Source: Candidatus Polarisedimenticolaceae bacterium | GTDB taxonomy: Bacteria > Pseudomonadota > Gammaproteobacteria > Chromatiales > Chromatiaceae | Direction of reading: 5' to 3' | Length of the DNA stretch: 64,000 nucleotides | Assembly (NCBI GenBank): GCA_021648685.1 | Contig: JAKISI010000001.1 | Location: forward strand, 1-64,000 | In this document: in pieces, positions 26,844 through 33,480 of the stretch | How the letters are laid out: the number at the start of each line of letters is the position of its first letter | Numbering within the stretch: position 1 is the first letter of the stretch | Position numbers and translations under genes: made by a program | Notes under the pieces: generated by a model | What the model was told of the DNA's origin: nothing | The model's input: the letters and a program-made list of their open reading frames with translations, nothing else | The model's database searches: none

Positions 26844-27518
26844 TTGTGCAGCCAGCACGGTTATCAATATCCGCGTCCCGCAGTGACCACAGATGTTGCT
26901 GTGTTTACGATACGTGGCCAGCGGCTACAGCTGTTGTTGATACAGCGCGCTGGCGAGCCCTATCAAAACAGGTGGGCGCTGCCGGGTGGTTTTTTGGATA
27001 TTAATGAGGATCTGGAGGCTTGCGCCAAGCGTGAATTGGCAGAAGAGACGGGGATAAGCGGCGTCTATCTTGAGCAGCTCTACACCTTTGGCTCGCTCAA
27101 TCGTGATCCCCGTGGGCGTGTTATCAGCGTGGCTTATTATGCGCTGGTGCCTTCTGACCGACTGCAACCCAAAGCGGCAAGTGATGCCGCTGATGTGCAG
27201 TGGTTTGCACTGGATCAGCTGCCACCCCTGGCTTTTGACCATCAACAGATTGCGGCTCTGGCACAGCGCAGGCTTGCGGCAAAACTGGACTACTCCACTA
27301 TAGCCTTTCAGTTTATGCCAAAAACTTTTACCCTGAGTGAGTTGCAAGCAGTGTATGAAATTCTGATCAATGAGCGTTTGGATAAGCGTAATTTCCGCAA
27401 AAAGATATTAGCATTGAAGGAGATTGAAGCGGTGGGTGAGCTGCGCCGAACAGGGAACCATCGTCCAGCTCGCGTCTACCAGTTAAAAAACCCGGAGCGG
27501 GTTGATATCATTAAATGA
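26844..27518 (+). CDS. nrtR: NrtR-type Nudix transcriptional regulator of NAD metabolism
   Basis: The product has a Nudix domain (about residues 12-145) and a C-terminal winged-helix segment (about 150-220). The phrase FTLSELQAVYEILINERLDKRNFRKKIL is typical of NrtR, a repressor of NAD biosynthesis genes that responds to ADP-ribose. The Nudix box is complete: Gly, then Glu six residues on, then RELAEETGI, so hydrolase activity may remain. In many NrtR proteins this box is decayed. The gene lies 41 bases before nadA. The start is uncertain: TTG at 26844 gives 224 residues, with GAGGT 11 bases upstream, and no in-frame ATG is nearby. Confidence 0.78.
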   Translation: MCSQHGYQYPRPAVTTDVAVFTIRGQRLQLLLIQRAGEPYQNRWALPGGFLDINEDLEACAKRELAEETGISGVYLEQLYTFGSLNRDPRGRVISVAYYALVPSDRLQPKAASDAADVQWFALDQLPPLAFDHQQIAALAQRRLAAKLDYSTIAFQFMPKTFTLSELQAVYEILINERLDKRNFRKKILALKEIEAVGELRRTGNHRPARVYQLKNPERVDIIK

Positions 27519-27559
27519 AGCTATATTAATGCCCTGAATTGAGAATAGAGAGTCGCGTT

Positions 27560-28615
27560 ATGTCCAGAAGCAGTAAGATTGCTCAAGATGCAACCAAACA
27601 GCAGCGTACCTTTGAGGTGCCACAGCACCCCAAATGGCCATTGTTGGATGAGGACGAAAAAAAGGCGCTGAAGGCGCGCATCAAGCAGCTGTTGATAGAG
27701 AAAAATGCAGTGCTGGTTGCCCACTATTATACCGATGGCGATCTTCAGGATCTGGCAGAGGAGACGGGCGGTTGTGTATCGGACTCACTTGAAATGGCTC
27801 GCTTCGGCCATGCACATGATGCGCCTACGCTGGTCGTGGCGGGCGTCCGTTTTATGGGTGAGACGGCCAAGATTCTCAGCCCCGAAAAGCGTATCCTGAT
27901 GCCGGATCTCAATGCGACCTGCTCTCTGGATGAGGGTTGCCCCCCTGATCAGTTTGCGGCTTTTTGCGAGGCTCACCCAGATCACACCGTTGTGGTCTAT
28001 GCCAATACCAGCGCTGCGGTGAAGGCGCATGCAGACTGGATGGTTACCTCAAGCATCGCCTTGCCCATTATCAAACATCTGAAAGCGCGGGGGGAGAAGA
28101 TCCTGTGGGCACCTGACCGGCATCTGGGCAGCTATATCCAGAGTGTTACGGGGGTTGACATGCTGATGTGGGACGGCTCCTGCGTGGTGCATGAAGAGTT
28201 TAAATCAGTTGCACTTGAGCGGATACGCAAATTGCATCCTGATGCCGCTGTGCTGGTTCACCCGGAATCTCCCGCCGATGTTATTGAGCAGGCAGATGTG
28301 GTCGGCTCCACTACAGCGCTGATCAACGCAGTAACCCGCATGGCAAACAGAGAGTTTATTGTGGCCACGGATGATGGCATTTTTCACAAAATGGCGCTGT
28401 TGGCACCAGACAAGATATTGATTGAGGCACCAACGGCCGGGCATGGTGCAACCTGCGAAAGCTGCGGGCACTGCCCCTGGATGGCCATGAATGCACTACA
28501 GAATCTGGAAACGGCCTTACAAACCGGCAATAACGAAATCCGCATTGATGAAACGCTGCGCAAGCGTGCAGTACTGCCGATTCAGCGCATGCTGGATTTT
28601 GCTTCAAAGCAGTAG
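27560..28615 (+). CDS. nadA: Quinolinate synthase A
   Basis: NadA condenses iminoaspartate with dihydroxyacetone phosphate to form quinolinate, the first committed intermediate of de novo NAD synthesis. The 351-residue protein carries the [4Fe-4S] cysteines: Cys121 (ATCSLDEGC), Cys208 ([10 protein letters not shown]) and one in [10 protein letters not shown] (299-305). Other motifs are [18 protein letters not shown] and [12 protein letters not shown] chose the ATG at 27560 over a TTG at 27539 because the earlier residues are not conserved. It follows the NrtR-type regulator, which probably controls it. Confidence 0.95.
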
Positions 28616-30324: not shown

Positions 30325-30487
30325 CCAGCAAATCCAACAACATCCAGAATATTCTGTGTTTCAAAGATGCTTAGCAGGATGCCAAGCACGGGATCTTTGA
30401 TTCATAAAGATGGTTCCCCTCATCAAGTTCCTGAACTTTGCCGCCCTGAGTTGCGTGAGAAATGAGGATTGATTCCTGCCATGCTTA
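30325..30487. other. Gene-free spacer with a hairpin
   Basis: No plausible coding frame is seen. TCAAAGAT (30361-30368) pairs with ATCTTTGA (30393-30400), and an inner GCTTAGC/GCCAAGC stem pairs with one G-U. This could end the tRNA transcript or be a folded spacer. There is no T-run after it, so the terminator call is weak. Confidence 0.4.
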
Positions 30488-30644
30488 GGGCTTGTCAATA
30501 AATAACTTGATCATCTTGCTTGCCTATCCTTCCGTCTTCGGCGTTGCTGAAAGGGTTACATACAACGAGTATGCGCCCCTTTCAGCGCCTTGAATACGAA
30601 ACGATATTCAGCGCAATATGATCAAGTTATTTATTGACAAACCC
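30488..30644. mobile_element. MITE-like element, 157 bp
   Basis: The element has terminal inverted repeats of about 27 bp with a single mismatch: GGG + one base + a 23-bp perfect arm (30492-30514), matching 30618-30640 plus one base + CCC. A TTA on each side (30485-30487 and 30645-30647) fits a 3-bp target duplication. Inside, GCTGAAAGGG (30546-30555) pairs with CCCTTTCAGC (30577-30586) around a CATAC/GTATG core, so the whole unit can fold into one long hairpin. It has no coding capacity and would need a transposase in trans. Confidence 0.75.
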
Positions 30645-30824
30645 TTACCGGGAAGAACCTGTTTCACAAGAAACCAATTTGATCTGGACAAGCAGTAGGC
30701 GCTTTGATTCAGCTTCATTTCAGCTAAGGCGATTATATTATTTGCTATCGACCTCCTGGGCTGAAACCAATAGGGATGCCTGGCAGGATAAAACCAACTG
30801 AAACCATGGGATAGAATCATCTAT
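30645..30824. other. Leader region of the redox operon
   Basis: The 180 bases between the MITE and the reductase gene have no coding frame of interest. An AT-rich GATTATATTATTTG stretch near 30730-30745 could hold a -10 box, but no matching -35 is convincing. A strong ribosome site before the ATG is also not obvious. Confidence 0.3.
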
Positions 30825-32114
30825 ATGAACACGGGAACCCTGACGCTGATCATCTTTGTTGCCATCCTGCTTCAGGTGGTGATTGCTGTGCTGATTGGAC
30901 TCTACCGGCGCAAGCAACAATACCAGGATCTGGTGTCTCGTATGAGTGAGCTGCAGTCTGCCACATCAAATACCGCTGCAACTGTTTCATCTGAAGTGGC
31001 AGCTAAAGCACCACCCGCCTGGCAGGGCTTCAAGGATTTTGTTGTTCAGCGTCGGGTTATGGAAGATATGGCAGAATCTATCTGCTCCTTCTATCTGGTG
31101 CCAGTAGATGGCCAGCCTCTACCCTCGTTTAAACCGGGTCAGTTTCTTACCTTCAATCTCCAGATCACAGACCCAATAACCTGTGAAATAAAAAGCATCG
31201 TGCGCTGTTACTCCCTGTCGGATAGGCCGCAGCCTGATTACTACCGGGTTACTATCAAGCGGGTTCCCCCACCAGCCAATCAACAGGATATACCGCCTGG
31301 CTGCTGCTCCAACTACTTCCATGATCATGTGCAAGAGGGGGCGCAGCTTTCAGTCAAGGCACCATCCGGCCATTTTTACCTTGTAGAGAGAGAGCCTCTG
31401 CCCATTGTCCTGGTGGGAGGGGGTATCGGCATCACACCGATGCTGAGTATCATCAATACCCTTTTACACAGCGGAAGTTCGCGTGAGATCTGGCTCTTCT
31501 ATGGGGTGCGCAATGGCACCGACCATATCATGAAGAGGCATCTGGAGGTGCTGCAGCAAACGCATGCCAACTTCCACCTGCATATCTGCTATAGCCGACC
31601 CAATGAGGCGGATAAGGAGGGTGTTGACTATCAGCACCGAGGGCATGTGGGTATCAAGCTGCTGCGCCTCACCTTGCAGCTGAAGCGCTACCAGTTCTAT
31701 GTCTGTGGACCCAGGGCGATGATGGAGAGTCTGGTACCTGCGCTGGAAACCTGGGGTGTCGCAACTGATGATATCTATTACGAGTCCTTCGGCCCGGCAA
31801 CCTTGCCCAAGCATAAGAGAGCCAAACCACAGATCAGCAAGCCAGATGCAGCACAGCAGGCTATCACCGTCACCTTCAGCAAGTCTGGTAAAAACATCAG
31901 CTGGAACCCGGATGTTGAGTCACTGCTGGAGCTGGCCGAGGATAATGGTATTGAAGTGGATTCTGGCTGCCGGGCTGGCAGTTGTGGCAGCTGCCAGACC
32001 GCTCTGGAATCTGGTGAAGTGGATTACACTCAGGATCCTGATGCTGACATAGAGGCAGGGCACTGCCTGTTGTGTATTTCAAAACCTAAAAGTGACCTTA
32101 CGCTAACCGCATAG
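30825..32114 (+). CDS. Membrane-anchored NqrF-like flavin / 2Fe-2S oxidoreductase
   Basis: This 429-residue protein has an N-terminal membrane anchor (about 5-27), a ferredoxin-NADP reductase-type FAD and NAD(P)H domain (about 70-325), and a C-terminal plant-type [2Fe-2S] domain (about 345-425). The FAD motif is RCYSLSD (127-133) and the nucleotide motif is GGGIGITPM (198-206). Cluster cysteines are Cys382, Cys387, Cys390 and one of Cys414/Cys417. The domain order is reversed relative to NqrF (where ferredoxin comes first) and matches phthalate-dioxygenase-reductase or Hcr-type enzymes. It should draw electrons from NAD(P)H in the cytoplasm. The two genes behind it code for a membrane b-type and a periplasmic multiheme c-type protein, suggesting a transmembrane relay. 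Confidence 0.82.
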   Translation: MNTGTLTLIIFVAILLQVVIAVLIGLYRRKQQYQDLVSRMSELQSATSNTAATVSSEVAAKAPPAWQGFKDFVVQRRVMEDMAESICSFYLVPVDGQPLPSFKPGQFLTFNLQITDPITCEIKSIVRCYSLSDRPQPDYYRVTIKRVPPPANQQDIPPGCCSNYFHDHVQEGAQLSVKAPSGHFYLVEREPLPIVLVGGGIGITPMLSIINTLLHSGSSREIWLFYGVRNGTDHIMKRHLEVLQQTHANFHLHICYSRPNEADKEGVDYQHRGHVGIKLLRLTLQLKRYQFYVCGPRAMMESLVPALETWGVATDDIYYESFGPATLPKHKRAKPQISKPDAAQQAITVTFSKSGKNISWNPDVESLLELAEDNGIEVDSGCRAGSCGSCQTALESGEVDYTQDPDADIEAGHCLLCISKPKSDLTLTA

Positions 32115-32122
32115 AGACCGTT

Positions 32123-32701
32123 ATGGAACCTTCGCTTATCAGTAAAAAAGTCATGCCGTTTCTGCTGAGTTTTATCGCACTGATTGCTGCGACGGCTATA
32201 GTAGATGCGCTACTGCATCTATCGGGTTTGACCTGGATCGGGCGCTGGCTGGGCATACCGGGTGTTCTTTTAATCCTGCTCTCCTTCCTCTACTCGATGC
32301 GTAAACGCAAGAAGATCAGCTTTGGCAAACCGAAGACATTGCTCAAACTGCATGAGGTTCTTACCTGGACAGGAGCGCTGATGGTTCTGGTGCATGCGGG
32401 CATACATGTCTACAACATCCTACCCTGGCTGGCGCTGGTTGCCATGATGGTCAACATCATCAGCGGCATGACCGGTCAGTACCTGCTGGATCGCTCACGC
32501 CGTTATGTGGCAGAGAAAAAGGCAAGCTATGCAGAGCGAGGGCTTACTGCGGAAGCAGCAGAGAAAGAGCTCTTCTGGGACTCTGTCACCTATGACCTGA
32601 TGAAGAGGTGGCGGGCGGTGCACTTTCCGATCACCCTGGTCTTCTCGGTACTTGCTATCACCCATATCTTTACCATCCTTCTATACTGGCAATGGAAATG
32701 A
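32123..32701 (+). CDS. Putative b-type cytochrome membrane subunit
   Basis: This 192-residue protein has four or five hydrophobic segments (about 11-31, 43-59, 79-98, 100-117, 166-188). Histidines lie in membrane segments at His77 (LHEVLTW), His91 and His95 (VHAGIHVYN), His167 (HFPIT) and His181 (THIFTI), a pattern that could hold two stacked b hemes. I do not recognise a named family with certainty. It is eight bases after the reductase and overlaps the multiheme cytochrome start (ATGA), so it most likely links cytoplasmic reductase to periplasmic cytochrome. Heme binding is inferred from histidine spacing only. Confidence 0.65.
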   Translation: MEPSLISKKVMPFLLSFIALIAATAIVDALLHLSGLTWIGRWLGIPGVLLILLSFLYSMRKRKKISFGKPKTLLKLHEVLTWTGALMVLVHAGIHVYNILPWLALVAMMVNIISGMTGQYLLDRSRRYVAEKKASYAERGLTAEAAEKELFWDSVTYDLMKRWRAVHFPITLVFSVLAITHIFTILLYWQWK

Positions 32702-33480
32702 AAAATAGAACTGTCAATGCAATCGTCCTGGCCAACCTGGCGGCGATTCTGCTGCTGGTGATCTTTGTTCCACAGCTGATGATTGAGCCAGGTAAGCTCA
32801 TTGATGCCCATCTGGATCTCACTGATGACTGCTTCAACTGCCATACGCCATTTATTGGCAGCACACCTGACAAGTGCATGAAATGCCATAAGGTGGAGGA
32901 GATCGGCCTGAAGACCACCAAAGGTCTGATCATTGCCAAAGAGAAGAAAAATGTCGCCTTCCATCAACAGTTGATCGAAGATGATTGTATTGCTTGCCAC
33001 AGTGATCACAAAGGCGTGCAGGCCTTTCGGCCCATTGGCTATTTTTCACATCAGTTGATTGCACGGGATATACAGGAGCAGTGCAGTGGCTGCCACACCA
33101 ATCCGTCTGATGCACTGCATCTGAAGATCGAGGGCAACTGCTCTCAATGTCATACCATTGATGGTTGGACTCCTGCTACCTTGGAACATGAGAAATACTT
33201 CCGCTTCGACAAGGATCACGATGCGGCCTGCGACAAGTGCCATATCGAGAGTAATTACAGCAATTACACCTGCTATGGCTGCCATGAACACTCCCGTTCA
33301 AAGATCCGGGAAGAGCATGTGGAAGAGGGCATTCGTGACTATGAAAATTGTGTCGAATGCCATCGCAGTGCGGATGAGGATGAGGCTGAATATATCTGGA
33401 AGTTAAAACGCCGAGGGTTATCGCCGCAGGATTATCCTGCCTATAGAGGCAGAGACCACGAAGACGACGATGATGATTAA
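32698..33480 (+). CDS. Membrane-anchored eight-heme cytochrome c
   Basis: This 260-residue protein has one N-terminal hydrophobic anchor (about 8-28) and eight CxxCH heme motifs: CFNCH, CMKCH, CIACH, CSGCH, CSQCH, CDKCH, CYGCH and CVECH. The spacing and short paired motifs resemble the cytochrome c3/NapC-like class III folds. The C-terminus is highly acidic (DHEDDDDD). The ATG overlapping the upstream stop is chosen; an ATG two codons earlier is also possible. It should face the periplasm and accept or donate electrons at the outside of the membrane. The final partner is not encoded nearby. Confidence 0.85.
   Translation: MKNRTVNAIVLANLAAILLLVIFVPQLMIEPGKLIDAHLDLTDDCFNCHTPFIGSTPDKCMKCHKVEEIGLKTTKGLIIAKEKKNVAFHQQLIEDDCIACHSDHKGVQAFRPIGYFSHQLIARDIQEQCSGCHTNPSDALHLKIEGNCSQCHTIDGWTPATLEHEKYFRFDKDHDAACDKCHIESNYSNYTCYGCHEHSRSKIREEHVEEGIRDYENCVECHRSADEDEAEYIWKLKRRGLSPQDYPAYRGRDHEDDDDD

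Follow-up and report, generated by a model that had tools for sequence, protein, structure and literature searches.

The genes considered here have described relatives in the PCC3 and PCC4 clusters, which He et al. 2017 (PMC5566968) present as putative porin-cytochrome conduits with a five-transmembrane (TM) inner-membrane protein carrying an SGXXG motif on TM4 and a WX3HX13H motif on both TM3 and TM5. The same article describes shorter proteins of the same design, encoded beside multiheme cytochromes together with another redox protein and mostly without a porin; it compares the histidines to those of FRD, proposes quinone coupling, reports no significant sequence homology between the short and long proteins, and judges the short type less likely to participate in extracellular electron transfer. 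PCC3 as presented in subsequent work has four components, with no flavoprotein among them (PMC12442390, PMC8788666, PMC10734462). Outside this group, SpNOX reduces cytochrome c directly, and Fre/MsrQ constitutes a split FNR/FRD (b-heme) pair (PMC5676040). The locus reported here is a set of three genes at 30825-33480 on the plus strand of a 64,000-nucleotide stretch of DNA (the window), which is contig C88 of a 2.95-Mb draft genome in 98 contigs. Its nearest related locus is in a Sedimenticola metagenome-assembled genome, where the gene 2 product is 98% identical.

Gene 1 (30825..32114, plus strand) encodes a membrane-anchored NAD(P)H reductase of 429 residues, with FAD (FNR-type) and NAD-binding domains followed by a C-terminal plant-type 2Fe-2S domain. 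Gene 2 (32123..32701, plus strand) encodes a five-helix membrane protein of 192 residues, predicted to be a di-heme cytochrome b of the inner-membrane protein type that He et al. 2017 describe. Gene 3 (32692..33480, plus strand) encodes a c-type cytochrome with eight CxxCH motifs and an N-terminal anchor, predicted to face the periplasm. Genes 1 and 2 are separated by an 8-base gap, and genes 2 and 3 overlap. Two ATG codons could start gene 3, at 32692 (262 residues) and at 32698 (260 residues); the latter yields an ATGA overlap with gene 2, and relatives that keep solely that ATG agree with it. The open reading frame positions thus bear out the coordinates, gap, and ATGA overlap (start 32698) given in an initial annotation of this DNA, which had read the trio as a transmembrane electron relay.

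We consider it likely that the three products form one inner-membrane NAD(P)H:multiheme-cytochrome-c oxidoreductase that resembles a split NADPH oxidase and in which electrons flow outward. The gene 1 protein, held at the membrane by one helix, would oxidize cytoplasmic NAD(P)H at its FAD, and its 2Fe-2S cluster would hand single electrons to an inner b heme (H77/H167) of the gene 2 protein. From there they would move to an outer b heme (H91/H181) and, on the periplasmic face, to the octaheme cytochrome instead of to oxygen or chelated iron. The cytochrome would then pass them to periplasmic acceptors, providing a quinone-independent outlet for reducing power. With SpNOX and Fre/MsrQ, each of these mechanistic steps has a precedent. 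Anatomy and comparative genomics support the relay proposed in the initial annotation, but its provision for flow “in either direction” was too loose: outward flow is favored because the membrane potential would aid an electron moving to the positive side, and inward flow is disfavored because periplasmic donors far below NAD(P)H would be needed.

Judged by description and motifs, the trio agrees with the short clusters of He et al. 2017: it too has five TM helices, two HX13H pairs in TM3 and TM5, an adjoining periplasmic multiheme c, an extra redox protein, and no porin. It departs from that account in that the extra redox protein, unnamed in the main text, where related proteins are modeled as quinone-coupled, is here, in most loci, an FNR-2Fe-2S NAD(P)H reductase. 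Of the literature searched for the trio, whether under its name or through its components, only that article fits; the arrangement was thus noticed in 2017 and has never been characterized, so that the initial annotation was right to say that no characterized complex has this make-up but had missed the earlier notice. As in the trio, PCC3 and PCC4 place a homologous di-heme-b inner-membrane protein (hhalign 99.6; see below) beside multiheme c. PCC3, however, has a membrane protein of ∼300 residues, 21-24-heme and larger cytochromes, a porin, and a YpdA-like flavoprotein with 4Fe-4S, whereas the window has 192 residues, eight hemes, no porin, and an FNR with 2Fe-2S; the porin and large extracellular or periplasmic multiheme c that define PCC3 are not encoded beside the trio. 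With NOX, FRE, and SpNOX, the trio as modeled would share an NAD(P)H-FAD domain, two stacked b hemes on His pairs of TM3 and TM5, and the spacing of the TM3 triad of NOX2. It differs from them in being three separate proteins with an extra 2Fe-2S cluster, five TM helices, and an octaheme c acceptor; sequence searches gave no significant match to them, and fold searches gave unspecific ones. The single chain with FRD and NAD(P)H/FAD domains that defines an NADPH oxidase is likewise missing: the genes are separate, and the fusions described below (L226 and L227) use another flavoprotein family. MsrPQ with Fre is similar in distributing a cytoplasmic flavin reductase, a b-type membrane protein, and a periplasmic acceptor over separate polypeptides, but its acceptor MsrP is a molybdopterin enzyme (PMC5676040) and not a multiheme c, and YedZ/MsrQ-type proteins, unlike gene 2, are without the first canonical heme histidine (PMC3591440).

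The gene 2 protein has histidines at residues 32, 77, 91, 95, 167, and 181, and the five that the initial annotation had placed at the membrane (all but H32) are where it put them. Hydropathy and flanking charges give five TM helices, with one HX13H pair in TM3 (H77/H91; 32345..32407, plus strand), SGMTG in TM4, and a second pair (H167/H181) in the segment running from W163xxxH167 through TM5 (32609..32692, plus strand). The positive-inside rule predicts cytoplasmic TM2-TM3 and TM4-TM5 loops, which would put H77 and H167 on the cytoplasmic side and H91 and H181, together with H95, on the periplasmic side, a pairing that agrees with the heme pairs of NOX2 (PMC3591440). We collected relatives of gene 2 from GTDB species genomes and from two further sets, one of 369 sampled gammaproteobacterial genomes and one of 398 sampled Pseudomonadota genomes, the class and phylum names of both being deduced from named relatives. 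No substitution of H77, H91, H95, H167, or H181 occurs in 21 relatives, with identities as low as ∼30%. H77, H91, H167, and H181 are still invariant in 53 relatives, the most distant of which are ∼20–30% identical, and the only other residues invariant across the 53 are G44, G115, G118, and W163. Because it is invariant across such divergent relatives, the histidine pattern is not due to chance. Both HX13H pairs are present in 52 of 53 short and in 31 of 31 long relatives.

The heme histidines of NOX2 are H101/H115 on TM3 and H209/H222 on TM5; further residues kept by NOX enzymes are His119 and Thr178-Gly179 (PMC3591440). The spacing of H77, H91, and H95 (14 and 4) is that of NOX2 H101, H115, and H119, and T117/G118 within SGMTG resembles NOX T178/G179. 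In ligand pattern (four His, on TM3 and TM5, at ∼13–14 spacing) gene 2 therefore resembles the FRD superfamily, a likeness of pattern for which we do not claim membership, and its ligands suggest that it binds b hemes and would function in the manner of an FRD. Searches with gene 2 gave no Pfam or NCBIfam match and no significant PDB sequence match. No gene 2 match to PF01794 exceeded the cut-off, 4 of the 53 relatives matching it weakly (best E 0.008), and genome G000 had no PF01794 match. The weak Pfam matches recurring among the 53 were DUF4405 (24), cytochrome b561 (14), and ferric reductase (4), and a PDB profile search listed 5o0t, a “putative ferric reductase,” at a weak E of 2.4. An AlphaFold2 model (pLDDT 80, pTM 0.66) has helices compatible with five TM segments, with packing that is not secure; the weak rows of the fold searches include STEAP2, hydrogenase cytochrome b, and cytochrome b561.

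Adjacency in other genomes had been set beforehand as a test of the relay; it proves common, and the idea stands. Gene 2 has a multiheme c gene after it in 49 of the 50 distinct loci with room to test; in the 50th (L142, genome G084) the cytochrome is present and was missed by the automatic count, its open reading frame starting early. Directly upstream of gene 2, 34 of 48 loci have an FNR homologue. In the 369-genome sample, the 8 genomes with a strong gene 2 match account for every one of the 7 strong gene 3 matches and for 7 of the 11 strong gene 1 matches (hypergeometric 5e-14 and 1.5e-11, respectively, values that are overstated since the genomes share descent). A Pfam tally of 103 neighbor proteins revealed no recurrent partner beyond the trio, the commonest family being b561, in 5. 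The trio is a self-contained module of scattered distribution, and its hosts include Sedimenticola-like gammaproteobacteria and magnetotactic bacteria (Magnetovibrio, Magnetaquicoccus). CDF or VIT1 metal transporter genes lie beside or near it in a few lineages (L072, L121, L128, and L119). We dropped a link to magnetotaxis or iron, for which these neighbors and the Magnetovibrio and Magnetaquicoccus hosts could be cited, as too thin. The trio adjoins a nitrogenase component 1-type (NifE/N-like) gene in a single genome of the same class (L117:10090-13527), and a variant order at L111:9096-16522 combines a close FNR relative, a cNMP-binding and 4Fe-4S protein, a divergent HX13H protein, and a protein with 10 CxxCH motifs.

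The short and long membrane proteins, for which the 2017 article reported no significant homology in sequence, can be joined into a single family by profile methods (hmmsearch; hhalign probability 99.6, E 1.4e-24), and members of this family are accompanied by four kinds of NAD(P)H flavoprotein; both points are new. The short type is mostly paired with FNR plus 2Fe-2S, more distant FNR proteins occurring in L107, L109, and L225. In 27 of 33 PCC3-type loci, a membrane-anchored protein combining 2x[4Fe-4S] with a YpdA-like flavoprotein lies near the membrane-protein gene (counted at >250 bits), a protein that the PCC3 papers cited here do not mention; this YpdA-like protein was found in 30 of 30 PCC3-type genomes of the sample, sometimes on another contig, as compared with 42 of 369 genomes overall. 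PCC4-like loci L074 and L230 have a TrxR-like protein with cNMP and [4Fe-4S] domains. In the fourth kind, present in two genomes, a NirB-like Pyr_redox_2 flavoprotein with a BFD 2Fe-2S domain is fused to the HX13H domain itself (L226:3792-5714 and L227:4026-6041, both minus strand), and a decaheme c gene adjoins each fusion. The last three kinds have in common a broad two-dinucleotide-domain flavoprotein fold but belong to different subfamilies, with iron-sulfur domains and domain orders of their own; FNR is unrelated to them. Among the comparative data, the fusion and the repeated recruitment make the strongest case for direct electron supply from the flavoprotein to the b hemes, and they favor NAD(P)H as the partner on the cytoplasmic side, with electrons flowing outward.

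The PCC3-type loci (L060-L068, L073, L108, L127, and L208-L224) encode a 300-residue HX13H protein with 21-24-heme and 15-77-heme cytochromes. We tentatively suggest, with somewhat less belief than disbelief, that the trio belongs to a widespread class of quinone-independent NAD(P)H:multiheme-c oxidoreductases that is built on one new di-heme b family with at least four flavoproteins, includes PCC3 and PCC4, and lets NAD(P)H feed extracellular wires directly. Beside one PCC3-type locus (L073:12022-18999), an open frame of at least 2326 residues with at least 77 CxxCH motifs reaches the end of its stretch.

The features of gene 3 suggest a carrier. As the initial annotation had it, the protein has eight CxxCH motifs (residues 47, 62, 99, 131, 150, 180, 194, and 220) and a predicted periplasmic body, the latter indicated by the Lys and Arg that precede its N-terminal anchor. 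Pfam matches over the cut-off were Cytochrom_c3_2, Cytochrom_CIII, Paired_CXXCH, and Cytochrome_C7, that is, class III and c7 families (PF14537, PF02085, PF14522). In 20 relatives the eight motifs are invariant, as are no fewer than seven histidines outside them (H40, H91, H106, H120, H143, H166, and H209), and H176 and H200 are nearly so. With these conserved histidines, each of the eight hemes could have bis-histidine ligation, which argues for a probable electron-transfer relay rather than a catalytic or terminal enzyme. An AlphaFold2 model of gene 3 (pLDDT 53) was set aside.

Pfam and hydropathy agree with the earlier description of gene 1 as a membrane-anchored FNR-2Fe-2S protein. NAD_binding_1 (E 3e-21), Fer2 (PF00111, E 2.9e-12), and FAD_binding_6 (E 6e-5) were all above cut-off, the accessions over it being PF00175, PF00970, PF00111, and PF08030. 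The anchor occupies approximately residues 4–27 (30834..30905, plus strand; hydropathy peak 3.2) and is followed by RRK, from which we predict a cytoplasmic catalytic part. The protein has the motifs of an FNR-type reductase with a 2Fe-2S cluster: the FAD-binding RxYS motif (RCYS, residues 127–130; 31203..31214, plus strand), near-invariant in the gene 1 alignment; the conserved GGGIGITP and CGP of the NAD(P)-binding domain (31410..31730, plus strand; PF00175 E 7e-21 in the genome search); and the CX4CX2C...C cysteines of the ferredoxin domain (C382, C387, C390, and C417; 31884..32090, plus strand; PF00111), invariant in 15 relatives. Its sequence gives no readout of a preference for NADH or NADPH. 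The closest solved structures are flavohemoprotein reductase domains and phthalate dioxygenase reductase. Domain order and motifs are like those of phthalate dioxygenase reductase and PaaE, which are FNR reductases with a C-terminal 2Fe-2S domain, whereas the flavohemoprotein reductase domain, although the nearest relative in sequence, is without 2Fe-2S. Gene 1 differs from all of these in its N-terminal membrane anchor and in its proposed partner, a membrane cytochrome instead of an oxygenase or globin.

Several observations weigh against, or limit the support for, a trio that works as one NAD(P)H-fed complex. Alignments of the gene 2 family gave no significant hhalign match to FRD (PF01794-type) or b561 (PF01292-type) alignments; the AlphaFold2 model of gene 2, searched with Foldseek (PDB, BFVD) and VIA-align, returned generic helical matches (BAR domains, ion channels, and ABC transporters); and the shared ancestry of the genomes makes the co-occurrence counts overstate independence. 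Of 48 loci, 14 have no FNR upstream of gene 2. In L133:7315-7449 (minus strand), L137:7031-7165 (minus strand), and L138:6806-7180 (plus strand), the reductase is reduced to a membrane anchor of ∼44 residues, which sits upstream of gene 2 and, in L133 and L138, overlaps it by four bases, and in L122:10370-10717 (minus strand) a reductase with its middle deleted is still found upstream of gene 2. Retention of the anchor without the reductase would fit a structural role, and one might speculate that the gene 1 anchor completes a ferric-reductase-like bundle as its sixth helix. Other genes take the place of FNR in L026-L029 and L141, with a b561 cytochrome nearby in L026, L027, L029, and L141. 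Such FNR-less loci, some with b561, indicate that the b/c core can use another donor, which may possibly be quinol. They also lend themselves to the model of He et al. 2017 in which gene 2 is coupled to the quinone pool, gene 1 then being accessory or acting elsewhere; coupling of this kind was proposed there for the related PCC3/PCC4 proteins (PMC5566968), several relatives lack FNR, and the b561 cytochrome is near the deltaproteobacterial loci as well as L141. We nevertheless regard this model as unlikely for the trio, given that FNR is directly upstream of gene 2 in most loci and that four types of NAD(P)H flavoprotein pair with the gene 2 family, one of them by fusion.

The remaining alternatives concern where the electrons come from or end up. 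The trio could be imagined to run in reverse, oxidation of sulfur or iron in the periplasm supplying low-potential electrons that enter through the octaheme c and reduce NAD(P)+ for carbon fixation; its hosts include Sedimenticola-like gammaproteobacteria and magnetotactic bacteria, groups known for lithotrophy, and FNR-type enzymes are able to run both ways. However, inward flow would oppose the membrane potential and would presumably require a periplasmic donor well below NAD(P)H, and no donor enzyme adjoins the trio in the window. Expression in related systems has been reported in both senses: PCC3 clusters of S. lithotrophicus are down-regulated on Fe(II) relative to thiosulfate (PMC8788666), but one PCC3 inner-membrane gene of Sideroxydans CL21 is up with iron oxidation (PMC12442390). 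On balance we find reversal improbable. The NOX2-like spacing of H77/H91/H95, the T117/G118 pair, and the CDF or VIT1 transporters near a few loci would suit a true NADPH oxidase or ferric reductase, whose outer heme reduces O2 or Fe(III) and for which the octaheme protein is a sink or shield. This seems very improbable, as all testable loci have an octaheme or larger partner, with which direct O2 chemistry fits poorly, only 7 of 31 long relatives retain the extra histidine equivalent to H95, and metal transporters are rare among the 103 neighbors. If NAD(P)H does feed periplasmic or extracellular multiheme c, as we propose for the trio, some envelope electron chains skip the quinone pool, and both the published quinone-coupled reading of PCC3 and PCC4 and their role as iron-oxidation candidates would need revision. 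The trio would then be a bacterial three-part counterpart of NADPH oxidase, with a heme wire as its acceptor.

The neighbors of the trio in the window are nhaD, tRNA-Leu, glgA, and pgi (the last read from its translation); by Pfam, no oxidase, reductase, or porin gene adjoins it, and the initial annotation had similarly found no terminal oxidase or reductase gene adjacent. Approximately 2 kb upstream, at 26844-28615, an NrtR-type Nudix/winged-helix regulator gene is beside a nadA-like quinolinate synthase gene; the proximity of these NAD-synthesis genes to the trio is probably a coincidence. Between tRNA-Leu and the trio, at 30487-30645, is an element resembling a miniature inverted-repeat transposable element, with 33-nucleotide inverted ends that are 94% complementary, and more copies are present elsewhere in the genome at 85–88% identity (L234-L236).

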